From contig WJMF01000224.1 of assembly GCA_014728085.1 (NCBI GenBank), positions 1 to 64,000 of the forward strand: a stretch of 64,000 nt of DNA, read 5' to 3'. This DNA is from Candidatus Zhuqueibacterota bacterium. Lineage in GTDB: Bacteria > Zhuqueibacterota > Zhuqueibacteria > Residuimicrobiales > Oceaniaggregativiventaceae. Under the pieces are notes generated by a model. It was not told where the DNA came from. It worked only from the letters and a program-made list of their open reading frames with translations, and ran no database searches. The position numbers and the translations under genes are program-made. This document shows positions 5,038-36,786 of the stretch, one piece after another (positions within the stretch are counted from its first letter, which is position 1; the number at the start of each line of letters is the position of its first letter).

Positions 5038-5422
5038 AATAATATTCCTGTTCGGAAGGTTTTAACTTGTTTTGCCGTTTTGTGATCCAGTACACATATA
5101 TTCTGGTAAAAAGTAAATATTAATATAAAAAAAGTAAATGTACTATCCAATTAAAATGTTTTTATGTTTGGCATGTTCATTGCAAAATCACAATAAACGT
5201 GATACCAAAGTAAAACCGGCTACCAGCAACTGGCATTATAAAACATTGATAATATAGCAATTACAAATTTTTTCTTCGCGCAGGCATTTTGATAAAATTG
5301 CCTTTCACGAGAAATCAGGTGTATCAGATTGGTGTAGCGTATCACAGAGAGACAGAGCAACCTCGTACCGCAGCAAGACATTTTTTTTGTAATTCATTTT
5401 ATAACAGATAATGGAGGGAATG
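5038..5422. promoter_or_regulatory. Divergent intergenic region between glgP and the cohesin-like gene
   Basis: 385 bases of AT-rich sequence separating divergently transcribed genes, so it should hold promoters for both. I could not fix a convincing -35/-10 pair on either strand. An imperfect palindrome lies at 5282-5303 (AGGCATTTT, GAT, then AAAATTGCCT with one bulged base), which could be an operator or hairpin. A GGAGGG at 5413-5418 is the ribosome-binding site of the plus-strand gene. No small gene is apparent. Confidence 0.45.
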
Positions 5423-6847
5423 ATGAAACTCGCGTTAAAACTCTTTTTTATCGGAATGATTTCTTTTGTGACGTTGGTGTTTGGCGGCAATTCAGATACA
5501 CTATACGTGACGCACAGCAGTGGATTGCCAGGATCGACGAATAAAGAGTTCATGATCAAAATGTCCAACGCCGACACAGTACGAGGTATGAGTTTTGTGT
5601 TGACGGATCTGCCTGAATCGATTACGGTAACCGATGTGCAAATCCAGGTTAAGACAAATACGTTTCGGGTTTTTCGCACAGCGACGACTGAAGGCGGAGT
5701 AAAAGTGGTATTGATTCCGCAAGCCAACAAAACCGGTGACGATCGATATCTACTGCCCGGCACTGCTGCGGACTTGCTGAGAGTGATTTGCGACGTCAAT
5801 GCCGATGCGCCGGCCAAAACCAAGGCAACGCTACGGCTAGCCAATGTTGCCATCTCCAACATGGAAAATCTAACCGAGACATTTAACATCAAAGATGGCT
5901 ATTTTTGGCTTGGAGCAAAGGGCGATGTGGATACCACCTTTGTCGGGGTGGATATGTTCGACGTCCTCAGGATGATCGATATTGTATTAAATCGTCCTCC
6001 CGCTGCGACCGAGTATGATATCTGGTCCGGAGATCTCAATGGCGATGGGGTTATCGACATGGTTGACATCATCGAAGCCATTGACCTGGCCCTGCAGGGC
6101 ACGGTCATGTTTTCGAAAATGTCTGTTCCGATCATAGATGAATCTGTGAACAGCAGTGCCCGAATTGATGTTGGTGTTTTGCCCAACAATTTTATTGGTG
6201 AAACCCGGGTTCCGTTTGTGGTGCGCAGTACTGAGAATCTTCACGGCCTTATGCTTAGTCTTAACTATAACCGCAAGAAAATACATCTGTCAAAATCTCA
6301 GATAGAAAATCTCGCTCCTGAAGTCAAGGCGTCTTTCAAGTATACGGAAAATTCTCTGAATGTAATGCTGTATCGCATGGATGGAAAACCGGTGCTCTCT
6401 CAGGGAGAAAACTTTTTCGAGCTGTCGGTTCGGGTGAATGAAAAATTGGATCACGATGAACATATTCGCGTTATCCAGGCCCTTGCCGGTGGAGAAAAAG
6501 TCCGGAAAATCCAAACCATTTTTGGGGAGAATCAGCAACAGGAAAGCTATATACCCGAGACATTTGCTCTAGAGCAGAATTATCCCAATCCGTTTAACAT
6601 GTCTACGGTGATCAATTATGATGTTCCACCGTTGGAAGAAAAGAGCACAACTGTACGTCTGGCGATTTACAATACGAATGGTCAATTGGTTAAAGTGCTC
6701 GAGGACAGGCAACGGTCAGCAGGGCATTACAGCGTTCAGTGGAACGGTTATGATGAGCAGGGTCGCTATGTTGCCTCTGGTGTCTATTTTTATAAATTGA
6801 TTGCCGGTGATGTGGTCATTACGAAAAAGCTGGCGGTAATGAAGTAA
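5423..6847 (+). CDS. Exported cohesin-like / dockerin-like protein with FlgD sorting domain
   Basis: 474 aa from ATG 5423. The in-frame ATGs at 5411 and 5420 overlap or abut the GGAGGG ribosome-binding site, so 5423 is preferred. Residues 1-21 are a signal peptide. Residues about 25-160 form a cohesin-like beta-sandwich (LYVTHSSGLPGSTNKEFMI...RGMSFVLTDLP). Residues about 168-225 hold a dockerin-like calcium-loop pair: GDVDTTFVGVDMFDVLRMID, then GDLNGDGVIDMVDIIEAIDL. Residues about 245-370 form a second cohesin-like sandwich. Residues about 377-474 are a sorting domain beginning LEQNYPNPFN and ending KKLAVMK. No catalytic motif is visible; it is probably a surface scaffold or adhesion protein. 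It leads a three-gene run (6883, 8783) of proteins sharing these modules. Confidence 0.8.
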   Translation: MKLALKLFFIGMISFVTLVFGGNSDTLYVTHSSGLPGSTNKEFMIKMSNADTVRGMSFVLTDLPESITVTDVQIQVKTNTFRVFRTATTEGGVKVVLIPQANKTGDDRYLLPGTAADLLRVICDVNADAPAKTKATLRLANVAISNMENLTETFNIKDGYFWLGAKGDVDTTFVGVDMFDVLRMIDIVLNRPPAATEYDIWSGDLNGDGVIDMVDIIEAIDLALQGTVMFSKMSVPIIDESVNSSARIDVGVLPNNFIGETRVPFVVRSTENLHGLMLSLNYNRKKIHLSKSQIENLAPEVKASFKYTENSLNVMLYRMDGKPVLSQGENFFELSVRVNEKLDHDEHIRVIQALAGGEKVRKIQTIFGENQQQESYIPETFALEQNYPNPFNMSTVINYDVPPLEEKSTTVRLAIYNTNGQLVKVLEDRQRSAGHYSVQWNGYDEQGRYVASGVYFYKLIAGDVVITKKLAVMK

Positions 6848-15632: not shown

Positions 15633-15675
15633 GTTTAAAGGTAAAAGTGGCTTTGGTGAGGGATGAAACTTTTGG

Positions 15676-15704
15676 TTGATTTTATTGTTATATTCGATTA
15701 TATT
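15676..15704 (+). promoter_or_regulatory. Sigma-70-like promoter for parA
   Basis: TTGATT (15676-15681), 17-base spacer, TATATT (15699-15704). The transcript would begin near 15711, just ahead of the GGAGG at 15725. It lies inside the longest possible parA frame, arguing that translation starts at ATG 15741. Confidence 0.6.
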
Positions 15705-15740
15705 ATTTTACTTTGGATGAAAACGGAGGTTGCTGGCGCA

Positions 15741-16520
15741 ATGGGAAAAGTGATTGCCATCGCAAATCAAAAGGGGGGAGTTGGTAAAACCACGACAGCG
15801 GTTAATCTGGCATCTTGCCTGGCGGTAGCGGAATATCCAACCCTGTTAATTGATATGGATCCTCAGGCAAACAGCACCAGCGGATTGGGTTTTGATTCCC
15901 GCAAGTTGAAAAAAACGATCTACGATGTGGTTATCAATGAAGAACAAGTCGGTAATGGGGTTATTGATACAGACCTTGAATATTTAAAATTGTTGCCCTC
16001 AAGTATCAATTTGGTCGGTGCGGAAATTGAGTTGGTGTCTACAATATCTCGTGAATATAGATTAAACAGAGCCCTGGAAACCATCCGCGATCAATACAAA
16101 TTTATTTTGATCGATTGTCCTCCTTCGCTCGGATTGTTGACCATTAATGCCTTAACCGCTTCTGATTCGGTCCTTATTCCGATACAATGTGAATATTACG
16201 CCCTGGAGGGATTGGGACAGCTTTTGAATACCATCAGGCTGGTGCAAAAACATCTTAACAAAAATCTGGATGTTGAGGGCGTGTTGTTGACAATGTACGA
16301 CAGCCGTCTCAATTTGTCTCGTCAGGTTGCTGAAGATGTGCGGCGTTATTTTGACGGGCGTGTTTTTGATTCTGTGGTCAGTCGCAATGTTCGTTTGTCC
16401 GAAGCTCCCAGTTTTGGAAAACCTATTATCTTATATGACGCTGTTTCAACAGGGTCTGAAAATTATATGAGTTTGGCTGAGGAAATAATAAAAAATGGTG
16501 AACAAGAAAGCTCTCGGTAG
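15741..16520 (+). CDS. parA: Chromosome-partitioning ATPase ParA (Soj)
   Basis: 259 aa from ATG 15741, with GGAGG 11 bases upstream and the usual family N-terminus MGKVIAIANQKGGVGKTTT. Deviant Walker A KGGVGKTT, switch segment LLIDMDPQANSTSGLG, and FILIDCPPSLG (Walker B) are all intact. It binds ATP and DNA and moves ParB-parS complexes. Its end overlaps parB by 26 bases. The downstream M23 peptidase and bactofilin suggest coupling of origin segregation to cell-envelope landmarks. Confidence 0.96.
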   Translation: MGKVIAIANQKGGVGKTTTAVNLASCLAVAEYPTLLIDMDPQANSTSGLGFDSRKLKKTIYDVVINEEQVGNGVIDTDLEYLKLLPSSINLVGAEIELVSTISREYRLNRALETIRDQYKFILIDCPPSLGLLTINALTASDSVLIPIQCEYYALEGLGQLLNTIRLVQKHLNKNLDVEGVLLTMYDSRLNLSRQVAEDVRRYFDGRVFDSVVSRNVRLSEAPSFGKPIILYDAVSTGSENYMSLAEEIIKNGEQESSR

Positions 16521-17358
16521 AGGATTGGGAGCTCTATTACCCGATGATTCCGATCAAAAACAAACTGCCGGCAGGATAGAGTTTGTTAAGGTTTCCACGA
16601 TTTCCCCAAACCCCTTTCAACCGCGCGAGAATTTCGACCCAGAGACGCTACAAGAACTTAAAAACTCTATCCGTGAAAATGGTGTTGTCCAACCTGTAAC
16701 GGTTCGCATGTTTGGTGATGGCTACCAATTGATCGCCGGAGAACGCCGGTTGCGAGCGGTACGTGATTTGGGATTGCCGGAGATTCCAGCTTATATTCTC
16801 GATGTTTCCTCGGATGAAGAGATGCTGGAGCTAGCCATTGTTGAAAACATTCATCGCGAGGATTTGAATCCTATAGATATTGCTCAGGGATATCGTCGCT
16901 TGATCGATGAATGTAAACTAACCCAGGAGCAGGTTGCTGAAAAGGTTGGAAAAGACCGTACGACCGTAACCAATTTTTTAAGATTGTTAAAGTTGCCCCG
17001 GCGCGTACAAACCAGTATGTCGAATAAAGATTTATCGATGGGTCATGCCCGTGCATTGCTGGCATTGCCGTCCGCTGAAAAACAGATAGAAGCATTACAA
17101 CAAATTACCAAAAAAAGATTATCCGTACGTCAGGTCGAGCAGCTGGTTCGCAAAATGACAGAGCCCAAAACGCCGGGTAAGGCTAAAAACGAGACGGTAA
17201 ATTATTACGTCGAAGATGTCGAGAACAAGTTGCGCCAGCGTCTGGCTACCAAAGTGGCGATCAAACCCAGATCCAAGGGCGGAACGGTAGAAATCGCCTA
17301 TTTTTCCGATGACGATCTGGAACGGCTGGTTTCTCTTATGTGCAATAACTCTGAATGA
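16495..17358 (+). CDS. parB: Chromosome-partitioning protein ParB (Spo0J)
   Basis: 287 aa. The family N-terminus MVNKKALGRGLGALLP, which contacts ParA, fixes the start. The CTPase motifs follow: NPFQPRENFD, then GERRLRAVRDLGLPEIP and IVENIHREDLNPIDIAQGY. A helix-turn-helix (TQEQVAEKVGKDRTTVTNFLRLL) and a C-terminal dimer domain complete it. It loads on parS sites and slides as a CTP-dependent clamp. It overlaps parA by 26 bases and the next gene by 4 (ATGA). No full parS consensus was found in the window. Confidence 0.95.
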   Translation: MVNKKALGRGLGALLPDDSDQKQTAGRIEFVKVSTISPNPFQPRENFDPETLQELKNSIRENGVVQPVTVRMFGDGYQLIAGERRLRAVRDLGLPEIPAYILDVSSDEEMLELAIVENIHREDLNPIDIAQGYRRLIDECKLTQEQVAEKVGKDRTTVTNFLRLLKLPRRVQTSMSNKDLSMGHARALLALPSAEKQIEALQQITKKRLSVRQVEQLVRKMTEPKTPGKAKNETVNYYVEDVENKLRQRLATKVAIKPRSKGGTVEIAYFSDDDLERLVSLMCNNSE

Positions 17359-18245
17359 AGATGCTGTTAAAAAAATCCAAACACCGCAAATTTTTTCAAA
17401 TTTTGATTATTCCGGATGATCAAGCCGAACCTCGCACATTTTCTGTTGCGGTTAGAAAAATGCGGCTCTATAAGATACTCGCCGTTGTTCTCGCCCTGCA
17501 TCTGGTCGTTGGTTTGATTTCCTATTATTTTTTGTTTCACACCATGTCGCGGAACAAGGAGCTCGTCAGATTGAACCACCAGCTCAACAAGGACAACCAC
17601 AAAGTATATCAACTCCTGGAACAAGCGGAAGCTTTAGAGATCGATCAGGCCAAAATCCGGGCTGCATTGGGATTGGAAAATCAGCTGGATGTGGAAGGAA
17701 GTGCCCGTGACAATGTAACCGTATATCGGAACCTCGTGCCCCGTTCAACGCCTTCTCCGGTTCAGGTGGAGCAGGCAGGGGTTGATCTCAAGGATAAGCT
17801 CGGTTTTTTGCAGCGGTCAAAATCAACTATTCATGATTATGTCGCCAGTGTTCCCACCTATCTTCCGGTTGAAGGCGTTTTGACCAGTGATTTCAAATCT
17901 ATTTATTCTTTTGAGAAAGCATCACACCGGGGAATCGATATTGCAGCTCCGAGCGGTACCTTTGTGAGGGCCTCGGCTGATGGAGTGGTGGTCTTTGCCG
18001 GCTGGACATATGATTTGGGTAATTTGTTGGTTTTGTATCATGGAAATGGATTTTTTACCTATTACGGACATAATCAGCGGCTGTTGTTGCAGCGAAGTGA
18101 TATCGCAAAAAAGGGGGAACCCATTGCTCTGCTTGGTAACACAGGAATAAGCTCTGCGCCTCATCTCCATTTTGAAATGTGGAAGGATGGTGAGCCGCTG
18201 GATCCCAAGGAATATATTTTAGCCTTTTCAAAAATTAAATCATAA
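17355..18245 (+). CDS. M23 (LytM-type) peptidoglycan endopeptidase, membrane-anchored
   Basis: 296 aa. The start overlaps the parB stop (ATGA). Basic residues precede one transmembrane helix (about 37-56, ILAVVLALHLVVGLISYYF), then a coiled coil (about 60-100). The M23 domain lies near 190-290: HRGIDIAAPSGT supplies the first His/Asp ligands and SSAPHLHFEMW the HxH, so the zinc site looks complete and catalytically competent. It should cut peptide crosslinks in the periplasm. The bactofilin 9 bases downstream is a frequent partner: bactofilin/M23 pairs shape cells in Helicobacter, Caulobacter and others. This context points to cell shape rather than autolysis. Confidence 0.92.
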   Translation: MKMLLKKSKHRKFFQILIIPDDQAEPRTFSVAVRKMRLYKILAVVLALHLVVGLISYYFLFHTMSRNKELVRLNHQLNKDNHKVYQLLEQAEALEIDQAKIRAALGLENQLDVEGSARDNVTVYRNLVPRSTPSPVQVEQAGVDLKDKLGFLQRSKSTIHDYVASVPTYLPVEGVLTSDFKSIYSFEKASHRGIDIAAPSGTFVRASADGVVVFAGWTYDLGNLLVLYHGNGFFTYYGHNQRLLLQRSDIAKKGEPIALLGNTGISSAPHLHFEMWKDGEPLDPKEYILAFSKIKS

Positions 18246-18254
18246 TGGATAGAC

Positions 18255-18668
18255 ATGCTTGGAAAAAATGATATGAAAAGTTCGGAAAAAAATGCTGACC
18301 TCAATACCATTCTTGGCAAAGGAACTGTGTTTGAGGGTAACATTCGCCTGGAGCACAGTCTTCGGGTCGATGGTGTGGTCAAGGGCGACGTGGATACCAC
18401 TGATACCCTGGTGATCGGTAAAGACGGGCAGGTAATCGGAAATATTAAAGTTAAAAGTCTGATACTCGGCGGCAAACTAAAGGGCAATGCCCGCGTATCG
18501 GATATTATCGTGCTGGAAAGCAAATCTGAATTCAATGGTGAAATGATTACCGGCAAGCTGATTATCGACGAGGGCGCCATTTTCGAAGGCAAGTGCTCCA
18601 TGGGACAGGCGGATGAAAATCCGGCAGAAAAAAACATACAAAACAATATGTCGTCCGAAGAGCAATAA
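18255..18668 (+). CDS. Bactofilin (DUF583)
   Basis: 137 aa. The central beta-helix (about 20-112) shows the repetitive glycine/valine pattern VDGVVKGDVDTTDTLVIGKDG and IKVKSLILGGKLKGN. Short polar tails lie at both ends, with no transmembrane segment. Bactofilins polymerise without nucleotides at the inner membrane and place cell-wall enzymes; some also organise ParABS. Its position after parAB and an M23 peptidase fits both roles. It is followed 6 bases later by atpZ, so the morphogenesis block and the ATP synthase operon are probably one transcript. Confidence 0.94.
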   Translation: MLGKNDMKSSEKNADLNTILGKGTVFEGNIRLEHSLRVDGVVKGDVDTTDTLVIGKDGQVIGNIKVKSLILGGKLKGNARVSDIIVLESKSEFNGEMITGKLIIDEGAIFEGKCSMGQADENPAEKNIQNNMSSEEQ

Positions 18669-26001: not shown

Positions 26002-26030
26002 TTGACATACTGCAAAATTCTTTATATTAT
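26002..26030 (+). promoter_or_regulatory. Near-consensus sigma-70 promoter ahead of the TPR/ExbB-ExbD block
   Basis: TTGACA (26002-26007), exactly 17 bases, then TATTAT (26025-26030). It is the best promoter match in the window, about 73 bases upstream of the first TPR gene. It suggests constitutive, fairly strong transcription of the whole 26-36.8 kb block, which has no other obvious promoter. Confidence 0.75.
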
Positions 26031-26102
26031 TTTTTTATATGATTTTGTGGCGCCCTGCAATGATCGGTGCCGCTTGGTTTATAAGTACGGAGATAAAGGT
26101 TG

Positions 26103-28955
26103 ATGTGTAAAATCCGCCAATATTATATGCTCATAGTCGGGATGTTTTCCATCCTGTTCTGTTTTCCCTGCCATTCGTACACTGCCACACCTCTCCAGGA
26201 TGGCGCGCCCGGCATTTCTTTTCAGGATCGGTTGTTTCATTATCTTTCTCTGCAGACCGATCACGTTGTTGAAGATTTAATGGCAAGAGAAATGCAAGTG
26301 GTTCAAATGGTGGATTTGATCAACAGGGAATTCAAAGGCCGTGAAAACGTGGTTCAGGAAGCGATTACGGTTATTGAAGGACCCAAGGACTCTTTAATAT
26401 CCGATTATACACAGGAACTCGAACTTCTTCTCCAGTTATACGATAACCTGCAGCATCTCGAGCGGATAGCCGAATATGGAGATCAAATAGAGGCATATGA
26501 TGAGGTTCACAATATTAAGTCCATTCTGGTTTCCGGTCTGGAAAACCGGGAAATATATGATAAAGGCATATATACCGCCGAGCGGGTGGGCGAAACCATA
26601 GATGACTATACGGCTGAACTGGATACCATGCTGGGTATATATGATACACTGGAATTTTTGAGAAAGCGTGCGGTGACGCAAAAAAATGAAAAAGCGCTGT
26701 TGCTGGTTGATGAGCAGAAACAGAAACTTTACAAGGTTCTCAGTCGCTGGGGACGATTGGGCCCTCTTTCAGAAGAGGATTATATCCGTTATCAGCTGGA
26801 AACGGAAAGAATTCATGATGTGGTAAAGACTCTTGACACGATTGCCAGAGAACGCAGCCAGACCAATCGGGACAGGATTTCCCAGATGAAAAAAAATCTG
26901 GTCGACAGCCTTGACCGCTCTGTATATGATTTGTTCGTTGTCGGTGATTTGCAAAAAGATATTTCTCATACCACCAGTGACTTTATTAAAGTCTGGAAGA
27001 ATGAGCGGATTATTGATGTCGAAACCCATTTGGCAAAATACAAAGCCATTCGCTATGAAATTATCAAGCGATCCGATCAAAAGGACATTCAGCGTTTGCT
27101 GACCGCCCAAACCAAGGATGCCTTGCTCAATTATGCCAATGGCTTGTATCGCGTCAGCGAATTCCAGTTTCAGGATATTATCGATACCTATGAACCTTAC
27201 TTTGGACGGTTGACAGCAATACATTATTATCTCGGTGAAGCGCTATATCATCAACAGGCTTTTGAACGGGCCAAGTTTAAGTTCATGGATGTCGCCGGCG
27301 AACCCAAAGCGACACCTTTTCATGTCGACGCGCTGGTGAGGTTATTGCAACACGCAGACAAATACGAGGGGTCGGCTGCATTTTTCGCTCTTTATGAACG
27401 GATCGTTGAGCTCGATTCGCTCGCGAGCGGTGACCTTTTGTCCTATTCTCATTATAAAGCCGCCAACAAATACTTTGCCAATACTCAATATCACGATGCG
27501 AATCGTATTCTGGATCAAATTTCCAAATCGAGCAGATTTCATTTGCCGGCTATGCTTTTAAAGGGCGTTATTTACCTGAATCTTGATGATTATAATTCTG
27601 CGATTCCGGTTTTTCAGGCGCTTGCCGGCAAGGAAAGTTATCCCTGGACAAATTTAGATGTTGCTTATATTCGGAATAGTGCGCTCTTGCGGTTGGGTAT
27701 GGTCTATTATCAGCGCAACGACTTTATGAATGCCCGCAACTATTTTGAGCAGGTGTCACAGGGGTTCAAGGGATTTGATAATGCCCTGATTGGAAAAGCA
27801 TGGTCTTCCTTGCGTGTCGGGAATTATCAGGGCTCTATTGATCAATCGTATCAATTGCTTCGCAATCATCTTGCATCCAACTATTCCTATGAAGCACTGG
27901 TTTTGTCGGCACATTGCAAGCAATTGCTTGGCCAACCTGAAAGTGCTTTACAGAATTATCGCTATGTCATCCGGGCCAGAAAAATGATGAATGTTGCAAA
28001 GGATTATCACAGCGAGCGAAACCGTATTCTCAGCCAAAAGAAACAACTTGGTCTTATCGAAGAAGAGTCACTGGAAATGCGTCAGGAAATTTTATACTAT
28101 AGAATAGAGGAGATGCAGGAGCGGTTGTCGCGGCTCTTGTTCCGCATCCATCAAAAGGGAGATAGCGGTAGTCGTCTGATTCAGGATTATCAGGATGAAC
28201 GTGTGGATATTATTCATCATCTCGATGACCTGGACAGGGTGATTCAGTGGGCTGAAGAGATGGAGCGGCCGGAAGTTTTGGCAAAAGCATTGGAGCAACG
28301 ACAGAGGCTTTTACGGGTTTTGCAAACGTTTCAGGGCGACCGGGACGTTGTCAATACGACTTATTTAATCGATTTTCCCCTGGCAGCCATGGAGGCGAAT
28401 TTGATCTGGCAGCGGGATAATTTTGTTGATCTTTACAGAAATTTGGACCTGGAAAAACGCCGGCTCGAAAATTCCATCAATAACTTGAGCAATATAACCA
28501 CTGCGGAACTATCCTTTTCGGATAAACTCGATTTGGAGATTCTGAATGGTGATTTGAATCATTTGCAAACCCGCCTGAGCAAATTTCGGGAATGGATTAC
28601 GGAGCAAGTGCCGGGTGAACCACAATCCCGGCTTGACTATTGGAGTGACTATGCCGGATATCAAGTAAGCAAAATCGTATATAATTTGCGTCAGGATAAA
28701 GTGGATCAGATCGGTGATTACGCTTCGCGATTGCAGATGATTCGGGATGTTCTGCAGGCTCGTAAGGAGGAACTTGAGAGCCGTTTGCAGGAATTTAACG
28801 AAGAGATACAGGTCTTGCAAAAACGATGGTTGTCGCGAAAAATAAAATTAGAACAACTGGAAAAGCAGACCTATTTTAACAAATATTACTTTGATACATC
28901 TGAGCGTGAATCCGAGAACTGGGAATACAGGCTTCAGCAGCTTATAGAGGATTAA
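26103..28955 (+). CDS. Large periplasmic TPR / coiled-coil protein
   Basis: 950 aa from ATG 26103 (a TTG lies one codon earlier). Residues about 1-28 are a signal peptide (hydrophobic core MLIVGMFSILFCFPCHS). Residues about 35-330 are helical and charged. TPR-like repeats cover about 335-640 (YYLGEALYHQQAFERAKFKF; AMLLKGVIYLNLDDYNSAIP; LRLGMVYYQRNDFMNARNYF; KAWSSLRVGNYQGSIDQSYQ). Long coiled coils fill about 670-930 (RLQEFNEEIQVLQKRWLSRK). There is no enzymatic motif. It is 39 bases ahead of a still larger TPR protein and leads a run ending in ExbB/ExbD/TonB-like genes. It is probably a structural part of that envelope complex, comparable in style to the TPR proteins that accompany AglRQS/Glt-type motors (inference). 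Confidence 0.75.
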   Translation: MCKIRQYYMLIVGMFSILFCFPCHSYTATPLQDGAPGISFQDRLFHYLSLQTDHVVEDLMAREMQVVQMVDLINREFKGRENVVQEAITVIEGPKDSLISDYTQELELLLQLYDNLQHLERIAEYGDQIEAYDEVHNIKSILVSGLENREIYDKGIYTAERVGETIDDYTAELDTMLGIYDTLEFLRKRAVTQKNEKALLLVDEQKQKLYKVLSRWGRLGPLSEEDYIRYQLETERIHDVVKTLDTIARERSQTNRDRISQMKKNLVDSLDRSVYDLFVVGDLQKDISHTTSDFIKVWKNERIIDVETHLAKYKAIRYEIIKRSDQKDIQRLLTAQTKDALLNYANGLYRVSEFQFQDIIDTYEPYFGRLTAIHYYLGEALYHQQAFERAKFKFMDVAGEPKATPFHVDALVRLLQHADKYEGSAAFFALYERIVELDSLASGDLLSYSHYKAANKYFANTQYHDANRILDQISKSSRFHLPAMLLKGVIYLNLDDYNSAIPVFQALAGKESYPWTNLDVAYIRNSALLRLGMVYYQRNDFMNARNYFEQVSQGFKGFDNALIGKAWSSLRVGNYQGSIDQSYQLLRNHLASNYSYEALVLSAHCKQLLGQPESALQNYRYVIRARKMMNVAKDYHSERNRILSQKKQLGLIEEESLEMRQEILYYRIEEMQERLSRLLFRIHQKGDSGSRLIQDYQDERVDIIHHLDDLDRVIQWAEEMERPEVLAKALEQRQRLLRVLQTFQGDRDVVNTTYLIDFPLAAMEANLIWQRDNFVDLYRNLDLEKRRLENSINNLSNITTAELSFSDKLDLEILNGDLNHLQTRLSKFREWITEQVPGEPQSRLDYWSDYAGYQVSKIVYNLRQDKVDQIGDYASRLQMIRDVLQARKEELESRLQEFNEEIQVLQKRWLSRKIKLEQLEKQTYFNKYYFDTSERESENWEYRLQQLIED

Positions 28956-28994
28956 TCGGTTTACTGCAACGATGAAAACCATAGGAATTCAGGG

Positions 28995-31900
28995 ATGATT
29001 AAGCAATTTCTGACCTGGCTTGTCATTTTAGGTACATTTTTCTTCGCCACGATGATTTGGGCTCAGGAGAGCGCTGATAATGCAGCACCGTTATCCGATG
29101 CTATTGATGATACAGTGACTGAACAATTTTCCATAGATGAATTGTTAAAATTCCGGAGTTATTATCAACGACAGATCAGCAAGCTGGAACACGAAAAAAC
29201 GGTTCTGCGCCAGGAAGGAATTCGCGATGCAGAGATGTTTCTGGAGAGGAATCCCAACAGCCGGGTCGGAGACAGAGTGCTCATTCGTCTTGCCGAGCTC
29301 TATATAGAAGATGTGGACGAAGGTTTTGAAGAACAGATGAGAGAATATGATCGTCTCATATCACTATACCAGCAAAATGAGATTGATTCCCTCCCGTCGG
29401 AACCGAAAAAAGATTACTCAGGGGTGGTCGACCTGTATAATCAGCTGGTAAATGACTATCCGCACAGTGAGCTGGTTGACGATGCTTTGTTTAATATCGG
29501 TCTGCTCTATGAAACAAGCGGTCACGCCGACAGTGCTTTTGTTTACTATAACCGGGTGCTGGAATTGTTTCCCTATTCTGAGCTGGAGCCCGATGTTTTA
29601 ATGAGGTTAGGGGAATATTATTTCAATCCGCCGATCAATGATATTCATACGGCCATTTCCTATTTTGAGAAGGTGCTCGAATTTAAAACCAGCCCGCGCT
29701 ACAATGAGGCGCTTTACCGGCTCGGTTGGAGTTATTATCGCCTGAATCAATATGAGAAAGCGATTTCCTATTTTACTCTTTTGGCCGACGATGTACAATA
29801 TGCAAAGAAATATGATCCGGAAAACCGTTACAGCAATCCTGCCGTTTTGGACGAGTCTATTGAATACATTGGAATTTGTTTCGTTGAAAAGGGCGGGCCG
29901 GAGGCAGCCGCTTCGTATCTGCAAAAAATCGGGGGGCGGGATTATGGCGTCCACATTTTAAAGCGGATGGGTGACGCCTATATGAAAGAAAAAGAGGATT
30001 ATGAAAAAGCCATTCAAAGCTACGAGTTTTTGTTGAATCGTTATCCCACCGCTCCTATAGCGCCCCGGATTCAGAATAATATTGTGATTTGTTATCGCCG
30101 TTCGGACAATGAAACTTATGCCTATGTGGCGAGGGATCAATTGTTTGATAACTATCGACCCGGCACCGACTGGTGGCAGCAAAATCCGGATGAAGCCTTA
30201 CGGGAAGAAGCACTGGGATATGCTGAAACGGCTCTTCGTGATAATATCACCTTTTTGTATAATACAGCACAGGAAACCGAACGTAAAGATATTTACTCAA
30301 AATCTGTGGTGGAGAGTCGCAGATATTTGCAGGCTTTTCCAAATGATTCAAGCGCTCAGCACATTCATTGGAATATGGCCCTTATTCTGGATACACAGCT
30401 GGGTCGGGTGGATTCCGCTTATGCGGAATATATTGAGATTAGCAACAGATACTGGGACAGCCCTTACCAGCGGTATGCGGCCAAAAATGCTGTCGCGCTT
30501 GCACGGGATGCGGCAATGACCGAGGTGGCAGAAGCCGAAGAACAAGCGTCTGAAGAGCAGACGCTTTCGATTGAGGAGCTTCGCCAGCAAGCTGCGGCAG
30601 AGGGGATAGAGGGCTTTAACTTTCGTGCCAGAATGAAATTAGAGAAAAGTAATCTGAGCGGGCCGGAACAAAAACTGGCGGACGCTTATGATAATTTTAT
30701 CAAACTTTTCCCGCACGAAGAGGAAACGCCGTTATTTCTCGCCAATGCCGGTGCACTTTACTATAGTCATAATCAATTTCGCCAGGCACTCAAATATTTT
30801 AAAACGCTTATGCGGCATTTTCCGGGAAATGAGCAGGTGGCACAGGCTCAATTTGCCATTATGGAGAGTTATTTTGGTAAAGCGGATTTTCAGAGTTCGG
30901 AGATTATTGCCCGAAAGATTGTAAACAGCGACGCGTCTGAACAGATTCGGCAGCGGGGCAGGCGCCGGCTGGCTGAATCCATTTACCTGAACGCAGAAAT
31001 GCTTGCGGAAAGCAACCAGCATTACGAAGCGGGTAAGGAATACCAAAGAGTCGTAAAGGAAGTTCCGACCAGTGAGTTTGCAGATTTGGCGCTTTTTAAT
31101 GCTGCTGTTGAGTATGATAAAGCCAATGATTATATGCGTGCAATCGAATCCTACAATTATTTACTCGCTACGCATCCAAACTCTGTTTATATTTACGACG
31201 CTCAGAACAATCTCGCCTTTGACTATGTCGAACTCGGTGATTATCACAATGCTGCGCTGACCTACCAGCGTCTTGCCACCATTCATCCGGACGAAAAACA
31301 AGCGCGGGATGCGCTATATAACGCCAGTTTGTACTATGCCAAAGCATTTGAATATGAACGGGCGATCAACGCCAACCAGCTTTTTTTACAGCGTTTTCCC
31401 AAAGACGAACAGGCAGATGAGCTGGCTTTTGAGATTCCGCGTTTTTATGAGCAAATGAATAAAAGCGAGGAGGCGTTTGAAGGGTATGAAGAGTATGTGG
31501 AGTTATTTCCCGACAGTCCGAAATCTGTTGAGGCTTTTTACCGAAGGGGTATGCATCTGAGAGGGCGGCAGCAGATGCGCAGTGCTCTGGTGGAATTTCA
31601 AAAAGCGCTGTTACAGAACCGGGACCTGGAAGAGCGGAATGAAGAGGGCAATATCTATTTTGCTGCAGAATCGGAATTTGCCATGGCCCAGATAAAGTTT
31701 GTTCAATTTAAGCAAATTCATTTTCAGCTTCCGGAAGCTGAACTGGAACGGAGCAAAACAGAAAAGAAAGAATACCTGCTCGAAATCGTCCGGCACCTGG
31801 GAAACGTCGCATCCTATGGCACTTCGCGCGTTTACGAGGCCACGTTTTTAATTGGTCAGGTGTATGAAGAATTTGCTCAAACATGGGCCAAACAGGAAAT

Positions 31901-33488
31901 TCCCGAGCGGGATCCGACCTGGCAGGCTGTGGCCCGGAAGGAAGTAAACGACGCGGCAAGGATCCTCTATGAACGCGCTTCCCGCGCCTACCGAAATTCG
32001 ATACTCTCTCTGACGTCGTTGGCCCAAAGCTATCGGAAATTTATTCTCGAAGAAGCTTCGGCGGAAATTATCGTTGAGACGGATTCGAACACGATTGTAC
32101 AACAGGATAGTGTTTTGCGCATTGCCGGCAATTATATTCAAAAATCTAAAATCGGTCTTTCAAAAACCAATTATCAAATCGGGTTTCTCGCCTTGCAATC
32201 TGCAGAAGCGGTCATGCGGGCACCGATTCCTTCCGGTTTGGACGACTATTCCGAATTGGTTTACCGGCGAAAACTAATCGAAAATGCCATTACGCCTCTT
32301 ATTCTGGATACCTTTAAAAGCTTAAAAAATGCACTTGTGGAAGCGGACTCGTTTTCTATTCAGTCACAATGGGTTGAAATGGCGAAACTGGAAATTATTC
32401 AGAGTCGTAATGTTATTCCCAACCGCTATTCTGATTTGGCCCTATATGGCTTGTATCATGTGTCAGACAATTTTCAATCCTATCGAAAACTGGTTTTCGG
32501 CGGCGAATCGTTTGATCAGGTTTTGAATGACCTGCAAACGTTCTCAGAGCAAATCGGCAATATTCTCGGGTTCAGCCGGGAAACCTTTGCAATTGCGGTT
32601 CAGAAATATGATGAGATTATTAAAACCGCTGCAGATTTGCGTATCGAGAGGAAATATATACAGAGCAGCAGAGACTCGCTCTTTCATACCGTTTTTGTCT
32701 ATGCCATGCGGTGTGAAACGCTGAGCCGCACCGCAAAATCTCTCGGGGACCAGGCGCGCAACCGGTTTTTGGACAGTGGCAGACCCATCTATGAGGAAGG
32801 TTTGTTTACGTTTGAGAGCAATTACTTTGCGTTGAGACGAATTGAACAGGCAGCCCTGGAAATTGGGTATGAAAAAGCACAGGAATATAATGCTGATAAT
32901 ATCTATACCAAAACTATAACTTTACAGCTGGTTCGTTTTGATCCGGAACAGTATGCTGGTTTGCTGGGGATGACGGTTGAAACGCATCATTTTAACACCG
33001 ATACCACCTGGCTGACGCGAGGGGTACATGAGGATGGATGGATGCGTCCCGATTTTGCCGATACCAGCTGGTCCACGGCAGCCGTTGTCGATCCCGAAGG
33101 TTGCATCTGGAAATCACCCGTACATGATACGTCAACCGTTTCCACTCTTGATTCTGTCTCACGGCAAGCCCCGCGGGAAGTCTATTTTCGCAAGTCGTTT
33201 TCAGTTAAAGGACTTGCTGTATCCTGTTCGATCGAAATAGAATCGGATCAGATGATAAGCATTTACTTTAATGGCGATTTGATCAAACGGCTTGTCGGCA
33301 AAGAGGAAGAAGAAGCGGTTTTTACTCTTTCGGATTTGCTGGTCGACGGTAAAAATGTCATTGCCATCCACGCGCGCAACAATCGAAAGGGTCTGGAAGG
33401 ATTATGTGCCAGCCTTGAAGTAAAAAGTCTTCCGCAGTGGGATAAAGTACGAAAAAATTTGAACCACAGAATCGAGTCAGAGATTTAG
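28995..33488 (+). CDS. Giant periplasmic TPR protein with C-terminal galactose-binding-like domain
   Basis: 1497 aa. Signal peptide 1-24 (IKQFLTWLVILGTFFFATMIWA). A short coiled coil (about 45-70) precedes arrays of TolA-binding/YbgF-like TPRs: LVDDALFNIGLLYETSGHAD, EALYRLGWSYYRLNQYEKAI, TPLFLANAGALYYSHNQFRQ, DALYNASLYYAKAFEYERAI and many more up to about 870. Residues about 900-1320 are helical. Residues about 1335-1480 form a beta-sandwich of the galactose-binding-like type (HEDGWMRPDFADTSWSTAAV; REVYFRKSFSVKG; ISIYFNGDLIKRL; LLVDGKNVIAIHARNN). This end could bind a carbohydrate or peptidoglycan. The gene sits between the other TPR gene and the motor genes. It may bridge peptidoglycan and the outer membrane in the same machine; that is inference. 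Confidence 0.78.
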   Translation: MIKQFLTWLVILGTFFFATMIWAQESADNAAPLSDAIDDTVTEQFSIDELLKFRSYYQRQISKLEHEKTVLRQEGIRDAEMFLERNPNSRVGDRVLIRLAELYIEDVDEGFEEQMREYDRLISLYQQNEIDSLPSEPKKDYSGVVDLYNQLVNDYPHSELVDDALFNIGLLYETSGHADSAFVYYNRVLELFPYSELEPDVLMRLGEYYFNPPINDIHTAISYFEKVLEFKTSPRYNEALYRLGWSYYRLNQYEKAISYFTLLADDVQYAKKYDPENRYSNPAVLDESIEYIGICFVEKGGPEAAASYLQKIGGRDYGVHILKRMGDAYMKEKEDYEKAIQSYEFLLNRYPTAPIAPRIQNNIVICYRRSDNETYAYVARDQLFDNYRPGTDWWQQNPDEALREEALGYAETALRDNITFLYNTAQETERKDIYSKSVVESRRYLQAFPNDSSAQHIHWNMALILDTQLGRVDSAYAEYIEISNRYWDSPYQRYAAKNAVALARDAAMTEVAEAEEQASEEQTLSIEELRQQAAAEGIEGFNFRARMKLEKSNLSGPEQKLADAYDNFIKLFPHEEETPLFLANAGALYYSHNQFRQALKYFKTLMRHFPGNEQVAQAQFAIMESYFGKADFQSSEIIARKIVNSDASEQIRQRGRRRLAESIYLNAEMLAESNQHYEAGKEYQRVVKEVPTSEFADLALFNAAVEYDKANDYMRAIESYNYLLATHPNSVYIYDAQNNLAFDYVELGDYHNAALTYQRLATIHPDEKQARDALYNASLYYAKAFEYERAINANQLFLQRFPKDEQADELAFEIPRFYEQMNKSEEAFEGYEEYVELFPDSPKSVEAFYRRGMHLRGRQQMRSALVEFQKALLQNRDLEERNEEGNIYFAAESEFAMAQIKFVQFKQIHFQLPEAELERSKTEKKEYLLEIVRHLGNVASYGTSRVYEATFLIGQVYEEFAQTWAKQEIPERDPTWQAVARKEVNDAARILYERASRAYRNSILSLTSLAQSYRKFILEEASAEIIVETDSNTIVQQDSVLRIAGNYIQKSKIGLSKTNYQIGFLALQSAEAVMRAPIPSGLDDYSELVYRRKLIENAITPLILDTFKSLKNALVEADSFSIQSQWVEMAKLEIIQSRNVIPNRYSDLALYGLYHVSDNFQSYRKLVFGGESFDQVLNDLQTFSEQIGNILGFSRETFAIAVQKYDEIIKTAADLRIERKYIQSSRDSLFHTVFVYAMRCETLSRTAKSLGDQARNRFLDSGRPIYEEGLFTFESNYFALRRIEQAALEIGYEKAQEYNADNIYTKTITLQLVRFDPEQYAGLLGMTVETHHFNTDTTWLTRGVHEDGWMRPDFADTSWSTAAVVDPEGCIWKSPVHDTSTVSTLDSVSRQAPREVYFRKSFSVKGLAVSCSIEIESDQMISIYFNGDLIKRLVGKEEEEAVFTLSDLLVDGKNVIAIHARNNRKGLEGLCASLEVKSLPQWDKVRKNLNHRIESEI

Positions 33489-33500
33489 AGGGAAGAGATC

Positions 33501-33848
33501 ATGCTAAAAGTGTTAATTATGACTATTTTTCTATTCATAGCGGCGGTAACGTGTCCGGCACAGGAGGTTCAAGCAGATACGACCGAGGAGGAAGAAACAC
33601 CGGATGTCTGGCAGGCAGAGGAACAGATCCTCAATCCGATACATATTGAAGCGGTTATAGAACAACCCCGGGTAACCCTGATTCCAAAACGGACGGACAC
33701 ACCTGTTGAAGATCTTCCGCTGCATTACCGTTCTTTTGATATAGAGTTAAAAGCCAAACCGAAGCTGATAGATGAGTATGGTAAAGAGCTGGAAAACGCA
33801 GCCCGAATTGAAAAGCTGAAAAAAGTGCTTGATAAAAAGGAGAATTAA
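33501..33848 (+). CDS. Small secreted protein of unknown function
   Basis: 115 aa, ATG with GAGGGAAG upstream. Signal peptide about 1-20 (MLKVLIMTIFLFIAAVTCPA). The mature part is acidic at first (ADTTEEEETPDVWQAEEQIL) and ends in a short basic helix (RIEKLKKVLDKKEN). I recognise no family. It lies 12 bases after the giant TPR gene and 50 before the ExbB-like gene, so it is probably a periplasmic accessory of this complex. Confidence 0.6.
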   Translation: MLKVLIMTIFLFIAAVTCPAQEVQADTTEEEETPDVWQAEEQILNPIHIEAVIEQPRVTLIPKRTDTPVEDLPLHYRSFDIELKAKPKLIDEYGKELENAARIEKLKKVLDKKEN

Positions 33849-33898
33849 GGATATATTTTTGTTTTCTTGGATCCTAATGTTGAGATAAGGAGGAATCG

Positions 33899-34549
33899 AT
33901 GTCCGAAATTTTAAGAAATTTTAGTCCGGATGTGGCCGGCTGGCAGTTCATGTATATTTTGCTTATTCCAGCTGTTTTCACAGTTGCGATTGCCGTAGAG
34001 CGCGCTATCTATATTTATATAAAAAGCGATATCAATGCTGACGAGTTTATGAAACAGGTTCGTCAGCTGGTCAAAGCCGGTAAAATCAAGGATGCCTATG
34101 AACTCTGCAAGCGGGCTGGTGAGCGCGCCCTTCCCAAGGTAGTCAGCTTTGGTTTGCATGCTGTTGTCAATAAAGAAGAGGTTGATTTTAGAACCGTTCA
34201 GAATTCCGTTGACGAAGGCATGCTGGAGGTCATTCCCCGCCTGGAAAGGCGTACGGATTATTTGGCAATGTTGGCCAATGTAGCCACCTTGTTGGGTTTA
34301 ATGGGAACCATTTTCGGACTAATTTTATCTTTTCGCGCAGTATCTGCTCCCGGGATTGATCCGACGGAAAAAGCAAGGCTTTTGGCTGCCGGTATCTCGA
34401 CAGCAATGAATACAACATTAACCGGCCTGGTCATTGCCGTTCCTGCAAATGTCTTTTATACTTTGTTACACAGCAAAACCAAAAAAATCATCGATGAAAT
34501 CGATGAACATACTGTTAAACTCATTAATTTGTTGACAGGGAATAAATAA
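33899..34549 (+). CDS. MotA/TolQ/ExbB-type proton-channel protein
   Basis: 216 aa, ATG with AAGGAGGAA upstream. Three transmembrane helices: about 17-33 (FMYILLIPAVFTVAIAVERA), about 125-147 (LANVATLLGLMGTIFGLILS) and about 168-190 (ISTAMNTTLTGLVIAVPANVF). The conserved cytoplasmic loop and the GTVxG/TxxGLxxAxP patterns of the family are present. It should form a pentameric stator around ExbD-like dimers encoded next. It works with the two following genes to use ion motive force. Confidence 0.92.
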   Translation: MSEILRNFSPDVAGWQFMYILLIPAVFTVAIAVERAIYIYIKSDINADEFMKQVRQLVKAGKIKDAYELCKRAGERALPKVVSFGLHAVVNKEEVDFRTVQNSVDEGMLEVIPRLERRTDYLAMLANVATLLGLMGTIFGLILSFRAVSAPGIDPTEKARLLAAGISTAMNTTLTGLVIAVPANVFYTLLHSKTKKIIDEIDEHTVKLINLLTGNK

Positions 34550-34551
34550 AT

Positions 34552-35100
34552 ATGGCGTATAAACCATCTAAAAGAGGAAGCAGAGAATTCAAGCCTCTGG
34601 AGATCAATATTTTTCCCATGATGAATTTAATGGTCGTTTTGGTTCCGTTGTTGTTGTCAACAGCAACCGCAATCAAGATTGGAGTTATCGAGCTCAACCT
34701 GCCACCAGCGACAGCGGGTACAATTTCGCAAAGCGCCATTCCCACAGAAGCGCGCGAAGATTTGGATTTAACCATCAGCCTGACCAGCGAAGGTATTTAT
34801 TTATCCAGCTCAAAAGCGGTTTTGAGCAATACCGAAGAGGATGTTGGCGCCACCATTCCGCCGAACGAGGACGGCACCTGGGATTTTGAAGCGCTGTCTC
34901 AGCTGTTGCTGGAAATCAAGCGAAGGATTGCCGGAACCGCCTTTGATACCAAACGCATCATTATTCAGGCCGAACCACAGATAGAATATCAATCGCTTGT
35001 AAGCGCCATGGATGCATCCCGCTCGATTCCCATTGATGATCAAACAGAGATTGAATTGTTTCCTGAAGTAACTATTAGTTCAGGAATAGTCAGAAGATAA
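34552..35100 (+). CDS. ExbD/TolR-like protein with Asn in place of the ion-carrying Asp
   Basis: 182 aa, 2 bases after the ExbB-like stop. One transmembrane helix near the N-terminus: EINIFPMMNLMVVLVPLLLS. In ExbD/TolR the same stretch reads INVTPxxDVMLVLL, and its Asp carries ions through the channel. Here the residue is Asn25 (codon AAT at 34624-34626). The periplasmic part (about 50-182) is longer than in ExbD and ends in a dimerisation-like fold (RIIIQAEPQIEYQSLVSAMD). It is probably a non-conducting partner of the next protein rather than a motor subunit on its own. Confidence 0.88.
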   Translation: MAYKPSKRGSREFKPLEINIFPMMNLMVVLVPLLLSTATAIKIGVIELNLPPATAGTISQSAIPTEAREDLDLTISLTSEGIYLSSSKAVLSNTEEDVGATIPPNEDGTWDFEALSQLLLEIKRRIAGTAFDTKRIIIQAEPQIEYQSLVSAMDASRSIPIDDQTEIELFPEVTISSGIVRR

Positions 35101-35117
35101 ATTTTAAGGTATAATTT

Positions 35118-35612
35118 ATGGCGTTTATTCCATCGAGAATTAAAAAGCATAAAACCAGCACCAAAATGGTGCGGTTAAATTTAACCTCAATGATGGATAT
35201 TTTTACAATTATTTTGGTTTTTTTGTTGAAAACGTATTCCACAGAAGGACAATTAATACATCCTTCCGATAATTTGACCCTGCCCTCTTCCACGATAGAA
35301 ACCGCCCCCGAGATTGCACTGGATGTGATTGTTTCACGGGAATGGATCATGGTGAACAATCAACCCATTGCCAGAGTAAGTGATGTTGTTGGCCAACCCG
35401 GTTTAATTATCGAGTCGCTTAGCCAGGTATTACATCAGTTTGCAACCGAAGCAAAACGCATGGAAGAGATGTATGGTGTACCGTTTTCGGGCAAAGTAAC
35501 CATACAGGGAGACAAAAAGTTACCCTTTCGGACTCTGTTAAAGGTTATGGCGACATGTGGCCGGTCAGAGTATCCAAAGATGAGGTTGGTTGTCTATCAA
35601 AAACAAAGTTGA
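35118..35612 (+). CDS. ExbD/TolR-like protein with intact ion-carrying Asp
   Basis: 164 aa. N-terminal basic stretch, then NLTSMMDIFTIILVFLLKTY, with Asp27 at the ion-carrying position (GAT at 35196-35198). The periplasmic domain (about 45-160) ends KVTIQGDKKLPFRTLLKVMA, the TolR/ExbD C-terminal pattern. ATG 35118 lies 17 bases after the previous stop. Together with the Asn variant it could form an asymmetric dimer inside the ExbB-like pentamer. Its end overlaps the next gene by 23 bases. Confidence 0.9.
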   Translation: MAFIPSRIKKHKTSTKMVRLNLTSMMDIFTIILVFLLKTYSTEGQLIHPSDNLTLPSSTIETAPEIALDVIVSREWIMVNNQPIARVSDVVGQPGLIIESLSQVLHQFATEAKRMEEMYGVPFSGKVTIQGDKKLPFRTLLKVMATCGRSEYPKMRLVVYQKQS

Positions 35613-36786
35613 TTCGCAGACCGTGTTAAAAAATTATCGTAAAAAACCTTTTTCTGAACTGGATCCCCTTTATATTACCACACTCGTACTCTCGTTTTTG
35701 CTGCATTACGGTATAGTGGGTTATTTTGTTCTAAATCCCCCCGAGTCCAGATTGCCTATCAAAGGAACGGTAGAGCGAATTCAGGCCGGGTATGCTGATC
35801 AGCTTCTCGGTGGCGAGACGACGGTTATGGCAAACCAGCTGAAAATTGATCAGCAACTCTATGAATATGAAGCACCTGCAGAAGAGGAGACCAGCGCAAA
35901 TTTGCTGCAAGAGCCGGAGACACAATACGCTCAAGAGGAAGAACCGGATTCAGATGAACCAACCCCTCGGGCAGACGGGGGTGTTGAGGACAAAGCCGTA
36001 GAGCGGCAGCGTACCCTCTCTGATCGTTCCGATGCATCGGCCAGGTCCTTCGGGCGCACAGGGAGCAGCAGCAGACGGGATGCACAGATGGCTGATAAAG
36101 GGATACTCGGCGCCTTGACCCGTTCCGGCAGCCAGGGGGGAGAAAAAGCCATTGATGATATTCTGAACAGCGATGAAGAATTGGATGACATTTATAAGGA
36201 AATCGGTAAAGGCTCGGCTGCAGGTCAGGGTAAAGCCGCTGGTAGTGGTGGCCGGGGAGAGGGGGGCGGCACAAGTGACTCTGGTGGTCGAAAAGAGGTT
36301 CAGGGGCAAAGACGAACGGTAACGGGAAGCATCAATACCCGTATTTCCGATATAGAGGGTACCGGCAGCGGAGAAGGCTCGGGCGCCGGGGGGGCTGAGG
36401 CGACAAAAAATACAAAAATGATTAAAACCGAGCTGACACCGATTCAATCTGAAGATGATACCGACGCCAATGAGAGACAAACTCTGGTCGGGGCACGAGA
36501 CCTGAATACCGTTTCTGAGGTGGTTTTTTCTCACAACTCGGCTATACAATATTGTTTTGAACGAGAACTTTTAAGTAATCCCGATCTGAGGGGTAAAATT
36601 GTCATTCGATTTACCATTACACCCGCCGGCAATGTTAAGGATCCCGAGATTTTATCTTCCACATTAAATTCAAAACATGTTGAGCGCTGCATATTATCAA
36701 GAGTCAGCTTGTGGAATGATTTTGGTGCGATTGACCCCGAACTGGGCAATGCAGTTTTTCGACAGGTTTATACATTCGGATACTAG
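35590..36786 (+). CDS. TonB/TolA-like protein with AgmX/PglI-type C-terminal domain
   Basis: 398 aa from TTG 35590 (GAGG 5 bases upstream); GTG 35623 is an alternative. One transmembrane helix at about 27-45 (YITTLVLSFLLHYGIVGYFVL) is followed by a long low-complexity periplasmic stretch rich in Glu, Ser and Gly (about 95-290). The C-terminal domain (about 300-398) reads VVFSHNSAIQYCFERELLSN, then LRGKIVIRFTITPAGNVKDP and VERCILSRVSLW. This is the TonB-like domain found at the end of AgmX/PglI proteins of gliding bacteria. It should be the element that passes energy from the ExbB/ExbD-like channel to periplasmic partners, most likely the two giant TPR proteins. Confidence 0.87.
   Translation: MSIKNKVDSQTVLKNYRKKPFSELDPLYITTLVLSFLLHYGIVGYFVLNPPESRLPIKGTVERIQAGYADQLLGGETTVMANQLKIDQQLYEYEAPAEEETSANLLQEPETQYAQEEEPDSDEPTPRADGGVEDKAVERQRTLSDRSDASARSFGRTGSSSRRDAQMADKGILGALTRSGSQGGEKAIDDILNSDEELDDIYKEIGKGSAAGQGKAAGSGGRGEGGGTSDSGGRKEVQGQRRTVTGSINTRISDIEGTGSGEGSGAGGAEATKNTKMIKTELTPIQSEDDTDANERQTLVGARDLNTVSEVVFSHNSAIQYCFERELLSNPDLRGKIVIRFTITPAGNVKDPEILSSTLNSKHVERCILSRVSLWNDFGAIDPELGNAVFRQVYTFGY

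Follow-up and report, generated by a model that had tools for sequence, protein, structure and literature searches.

The seven-gene operon A to G found in the window (the whole 64,000-nucleotide stretch of DNA that was analysed, part of the 5.19 Mb draft genome of an uncultured KSB1 bacterium) appears, judging from its sequence, to be the KSB1-phylum version of the known Agl-Glt/Nfs core complex, with features of its own. The initial annotation had presented it as a candidate new motor. However, all seven genes have counterparts in the Agl-Glt/Nfs machinery of M. xanthus, and the core was described in 2011 (PMC3169522), so the system is not brand-new. The further statement that no gliding gene is adjacent was misleading, because A to G are themselves relatives of gliding genes. 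In the 2011 study, Luciano et al. reported that gltC, gltD, gltE and gltG together with aglR, aglQ and aglS make up a core complex of unknown function in non-gliding bacteria, distributed among Gamma- and Deltaproteobacteria and Fibrobacter, and they reported gltF to be confined to Myxococcales and Bdellovibrionales (PMC3169522).

Organization of the operon

All seven open reading frames lie on one strand, in the order and with the sizes originally annotated, and they are as tightly spaced as claimed: the successive gaps are 39, 12, 50, 2 and 17 bases, and F and G overlap by 23 bases (Table 1). The near-consensus promoter proposed upstream of gene A was likewise recovered as a putative sigma70-like element, TTGACA-17-TATTAT. 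This is the sole match at 11 of 12 positions in the region, and promoter-like matches overall are only mildly enriched as a class (30 versus 19.8 expected). Domain calls on A to G were made with Pfam and NCBIfam models, which matched the TPR, ExbB, two ExbD and AgmX/PglI-type regions that had been named. Gene G encodes a transmembrane (TM) helix with a TonB-like SxxxH box, a Gly-rich linker and an AgmX/PglI tail, and the box is present in most G proteins of the long cluster type found in the window.

Table 1. Features of the operon and positions within the window
Feature	Position	Strand	Basis
Putative sigma70-like promoter, TTGACA-17-TATTAT	26002..26030	+	11/12 consensus positions
Gene A, 950 aa (from ATG), periplasmic TPR/helical protein, GltC/NfsC-like	26103..28955	+	Pfam TPRs, profile searches
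Gene B, 1497-aa TPR protein, GltD/NfsD-like, with KSB1-specific C-terminal extension	28995..33488	+	Profile matches
Predicted C-terminal beta domain of B, lectin/GH2 sugar-binding-like	32961..33485	+	Family profile versus PDB
Gene C, 115-aa secreted protein, GltF/NfsF-like	33501..33848	+	Family profile
Gene D, 216 aa, MotA_ExbB, AglR/TolQ/ExbB-like channel subunit	33899..34549	+	Domain match, tree
Gene E, 182 aa, ExbD, AglQ-like, Asn25 at the proton-Asp site	34552..35100	+	Domain match, alignment
Gene F, 164 aa, ExbD, AglS-like, Asp27 kept	35118..35612	+	Domain match, alignment
Gene G, 398 aa, GltG-like transducer	35590..36786	+	NCBIfam matches

Relation to the Agl-Glt and Nfs proteins

Homology was assessed with profiles built from KSB1 families and searched against the M. 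xanthus AM003 genome, which was reached with a chimeric query composed of protein S (identical to PDB 1prr) and the F protein of the window. These searches match A with GltC/NfsC, B with GltD/NfsD, C with GltF/NfsF, D with AglR, E with AglQ, F with AglS and G with GltG. The link between A and GltC, which rests on TPR proteins, is the weakest of the seven. The A profile scores 62 bits against NfsC, and the NCBIfam GltC model NF033756 has gene A as its best match in the source genome (8.4e-9, below the cut-off for true GltC) and matches 0 of 14 control genomes. The B profile reaches 272 bits with the GltD-type protein, 241 with NfsD and 441 with a third M. xanthus paralogue (L119-type). For C, the NfsF-position protein is matched at 8.4e-9, and the proteins preceding GltG in two delta MAGs are matched more weakly (2.4e-5 and 1.2e-3). 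Short-type profiles of D, E and F score 189, 86 and 124 bits against the AglR, AglQ, AglS cluster, and the G profile scores 80-113 bits against GltG and NfsG.

The channel residues Thr137, Thr172 and Thr173 of D are conserved, and an ExbB tree groups this protein with AglR-type rows, away from the three other TolQ/ExbB-type genes of its own genome (100/98, 100/99). The tail of G matches the AgmX/PglI model NF033768 (E=1.3e-21) and the GltG model NF033760 (E=1.1e-20), the latter being the nearest named model, with a score below the 650-bit cut-off for true GltG. Neither Pfam nor NCBIfam gave an FHA domain match in G, and G had no match in a plasmid search. Sequence searches of the PDB returned TolQ, ExbB and MotA structures but none of the AglR type, and nothing for G.

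No GltE counterpart is present in the operon, where no gene lies between B and C, and GltA, GltB, GltH, GltI and GltK are likewise absent from it; GltJ gave no match above cut-off genome-wide. The extra 500 residues of B were considered as a fused GltE, and this was rejected because hhalign gives a probability of 0.2% for a relation between the C-terminal part of B and GltE-position proteins.

The galactose-binding-like end originally assigned to B falls below the Pfam cut-off when the single protein is searched. A 26-member profile of this end nevertheless recovers the assignment, with matches in the PDB to the lectin 6kbj (8.9e-15) and the rhamnosidase 3w5m (1.2e-11), and the M. xanthus loci searched lack such a domain. 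In KSB1, B has gained a lectin/GH2-type beta domain. Because the profile matches lectins and the sugar-binding domains of rhamnosidases, our guess is that the end of B binds envelope glycan. AlphaFold models made from three sequences gave a pLDDT of 58 for the C-terminal part of B, in which the helical region 1050-1300 is well predicted and the beta domain poorly, and a poor value of 48 for A.

Asymmetry of the two ExbD-like subunits

The membrane Asp of ExbD, TolR and MotB is needed for activity (PMC12905483). At this site F has Asp27 whereas E has Asn25, an asymmetry that the initial annotation missed. Of 123 distinct KSB1 E-type sequences, 122 have Asn at this site, and all 108 F-type sequences have Asp, while the channel Thr residues of D remain intact across the phylum. 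A sequencing quirk of one genome was considered as the source of the Asn and rejected on these counts. The lone KSB1 E-type sequence found with Asp (L186) comes from a short contig. Within the TM segment of E, residues M24, N25, P32, L34 and L35 are invariant.

Asn25 aligns with Asp28 (residue number by count) of M. xanthus AglQ, and the D28N change in aglQ abolishes proton conductance in that organism (PMC3858216). Many relatives thus normally carry the very change that is “dead” in M. xanthus. Across 97 sampled genomes of the M. xanthus phylum (Myxococcota) and delta MAGs, the E and F sites are D/D in 52 pairs, N/D in 21 and S/D in 3, with 0 pairs showing a loss on the F side; these proportions are not a census, because loci were picked in descending order of their similarity to the KSB1 profile. 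Well-supported branches of the ExbB tree force at least three changes of state at the E site, the direction of which (loss versus regain) is not given by the tree. Since the sampled relatives vary in the same manner, Asp in both AglQ and AglS is a trait of the M. xanthus motor and not of the family. Two Proteobacteria MAGs (L081:7611-9713 and L082:821-2911) have two AglR-like genes in tandem, the second of which is fused to an E-type ExbD with Ser at the proton-Asp site. Because the literature search covered open-access papers alone, among which we found none on ExbD pairs without the Asp, the novelty of the asymmetry is unproven.

A proposed model with one proton site

The best reading of these data is that the operon encodes a force transducer driven by the proton motive force and having one proton site. 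We consider it probable that A to G form a lineage-specific Agl-Glt/Nfs core machine, in which a one-proton-site E/F motor would deliver force via G to A, B and C. On the basis of homology, gene order, conservation and residue identities, we predict a complex in which AglR-like D builds an inner-membrane ring around one AglQ-like E helix and one AglS-like F helix. The E helix is expected to remain packed in the pore, because its TM segment is conserved and the Asn is kept. Since E carries Asn, there would be one working proton site per ExbD pair and not two. Protons would pass through a site to which F contributes Asp27 and D its Thr residues, with the Asn of E acting as a fixed “protonated-like” partner, and this ion flow would shift the ExbD pair relative to the D ring. 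G would dock on D via its SxxxH helix, and its linker and AgmX tail would pass force across the periplasm to C (GltF), A (GltC) and B (GltD), the last of which may contact glycan through its lectin-like end.

We also lean, if only slightly, toward the broader proposal that AglRQS-type motors commonly use one proton-binding Asp per ExbD pair, because the AglQ site is fixed as Asn phylum-wide and several myxobacterial lineages have Asn or Ser there. Such motors would be asymmetric (5:1:1), and their cycle could not be the symmetric two-Asp exchange that has been put forward for MotAB, ExbBD and TolQR. However, D28N kills the motor in M. xanthus, so it is not obvious that a single-site cycle would be viable there.

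Alternatively, E and F might not pair with each other, and F would then form an Asp/Asp homodimer in the AglR-like ring, which would make this an ordinary two-Asp motor, and E would be an accessory, a degenerate ExbD serving as a scaffold or regulator (for example by binding peptidoglycan or G). The stoichiometry of AglQ and AglS, as heterodimers or homodimers, is left open in the literature (PMC9389320), and the F site is always Asp whereas the E site varies among Asp, Asn and Ser, which speaks for this arrangement. We nonetheless judge it rather unlikely, given that the TM segment of E is conserved, that its site in KSB1 holds Asn and not random residues, and that M. xanthus requires the E-type Asp28 for function (PMC3858216).

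The distinction between a paired E/F motor and an F homodimer matters for motor models of the 5:2 type, in which each step involves an exchange of protonation between two identical Asp residues (PMC12905483). A natural family in which one Asp is always Asn implies either that two acidic sites are dispensable or that the pair is not as thought. Either outcome would test the rotary model directly, and the asymmetry offers a natural test of how the motor works.

Conservation, neighborhood and a short paralogous cluster

The initial annotation had proposed checking whether the seven genes stay together in related genomes, and they do: the A to G order recurs across the phylum far beyond chance. 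In loci of the same class, the order recurs with an occasional undetected C, D or E and some contig ends. A second set of 20 loci, mostly from other classes of the phylum, has the order in all cases, interrupted only by contig ends. Within-phylum kinship of the compared genomes rests on the taxonomy labels of the search tool. By profile, an E homologue is present in 76 of 82 phylum genomes, mostly as two copies each.

Immediately downstream of the long cluster, aspS is found in 23 loci. Upstream there is an F-type ATP synthase operon, a V/A-type operon (in some families) or a parA-parB-M23 peptidase-bactofilin block. The neighbors in the window are ATP synthase genes upstream and aspS downstream, in agreement with the earlier statement that no TonB-dependent receptor or Tol-Pal gene is adjacent. 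Five loci (L174, L175, L176, L180 and L182) have V/A-type genes directly upstream at the usual place of the F-type operon, as if one synthase had been swapped for the other in place. The window also has parA, parB, M23 peptidase and bactofilin genes in a row (15663-18668) upstream of the ATP synthase genes, and this block stays beside the motor cluster in lineages without a synthase at that place. Farther away, at 5411-6847, a protein matches FlgD-like and type IX secretion sorting tail models, which suggests T9SS-type sorting in the source genome.

With these loci, the orphan core complex of 2011 gains a phylum in which it is nearly universal. Its near-universal occurrence in KSB1 beside ATP synthase and aspS suggests that the ancestral task of the core complex was something other than myxobacterial gliding.

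A second, shorter paralogous cluster, A' to G', is present in most phylum genomes; examples are L064:4505-13364 and the copy of the source genome itself, L037:96-6625 (C89). It resembles the long cluster in its A'-B'-C'-D'-E'-F'-G' order, in the Asn of E' and in the Asp of F'. In contrast, A' has about 460 aa and B' about 960 aa, most G' copies lack the SxxxH box, G' aligns collinearly with the latter half of the GltG model (positions 214-646), and a putative outer-membrane protein precedes the cluster. In L064 and L059 this is an unannotated protein of about 340-370 aa, possibly of the outer membrane, encoded directly before A'. One family (L066 and L069) has A'-B'-G' without adjoining ExbB/ExbD genes, and the TM helix of its G' contains a TonB-like His box, unlike that of other short G' proteins; this set may borrow another motor. 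Elsewhere in the source genome (L072, G000:C211:66000-80000), a separate ExbB-type gene is preceded, two genes upstream, by one encoding a 1013-aa TPR protein, and this pair has no close kinship to the cluster of the window.

Possible cellular tasks

Because the operon is near-universal and its locus is of the housekeeping kind, a constitutive envelope function is favored over specialized traits like gliding. The most likely task would be constitutive envelope work, for example moving or remodeling an envelope polymer or the outer membrane. In the literature we found core-complex phenotypes only in gliding and sporulation, and no experiments on a standalone core complex.

A more specific proposal, which we regard as unlikely, is that the operon substitutes for Tol-Pal in constricting the outer membrane at division. 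TolB and Pal gave no match above cut-off in the source genome, neither gene lies in the window, and most relatives also lack such matches (TolB is found in 9 and Pal in 7 of 40 genomes). A near-universal system at a housekeeping site beside parA-parB-M23-bactofilin and ATP synthase genes would suit such a role, as would the contractile activity of Agl-Glt in sporulating M. xanthus (PMC5349195). However, six genomes (G026, G029, G030, G031, G036 and G039) have both TolB and Pal and yet keep the A to G system. A strict replacement of Tol-Pal was rejected for this reason; since some TolB/Pal genomes hold the long system, A to G presumably works beside Tol-Pal where both exist. The conserved gene order and the lack of TolB/Pal matches above cut-off do uphold the original view of a force-transducing ExbB/ExbD/TonB-like operon distinct both from TonB loci for nutrient uptake and from Tol-Pal.

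All seven genes are related to gliding genes, and KSB1 bacteria might accordingly be thought to glide with an Agl-Glt-like machine. This seems distinctly improbable: the operon has no GltE counterpart and the genome no GltJ match above cut-off, the core alone is insufficient for motility (Luciano et al., PMC3169522), and a near-universal housekeeping locus is unlike an accessory trait. Finally, a conventional TonB system serving receptors encoded elsewhere in the genome, to which G might point through its SxxxH box and its weak match to the TonB C-terminal domain (E=0.00068), is very improbable indeed, because that match is below the cut-offs (PF03544, 16 bits versus 24.6; TIGR01352, 19.9 versus 27.1), the G tail is of the AgmX/PglI/GltG type (1e-20), the ExbB protein falls in the AglR clade, and the genes always linked to it are those for GltC/GltD TPR partners and a GltF-like protein, never one for a receptor.

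Comparison with known systems

Like TolQRA-Pal and ExbBD-TonB, the KSB1 system comprises motor families of the 5:2 type, a Thr/Asp proton site on D and F, and an S/H motor box on G. It differs in having no linked TolB/Pal or receptor and in having two different ExbD proteins, one without the Asp. By published description, TPR-TolQ-TolR-TolR-vWA transducers (PMC12204202) also combine TPR and TolQ-like proteins with two different TolR-like proteins and a TM-anchored transducer, but the transducer is of the vWA type there and is AgmX/GltG-tailed here.

The system shares homologues of AglR, AglQ, AglS, GltC/NfsC, GltD/NfsD, GltF/NfsF and GltG/NfsG with the Agl-Glt gliding and Agl-Nfs sporulation machinery of M. 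xanthus. In KSB1, however, these genes form one contiguous operon without GltE, in a genome with no GltJ match above cut-off; G has a TonB-like SxxxH helix and no FHA domain, B extends to 1497 aa with a lectin-like end, and E has Asn for Asp28. Compared with the core complex of Luciano et al. (PMC3169522), it is likewise a contiguous cluster of the same families outside gliders. It occurs in a phylum beyond the distribution reported in that survey, and it lacks gltE while including a GltF-like gene and the N/D asymmetry of its ExbD pair.
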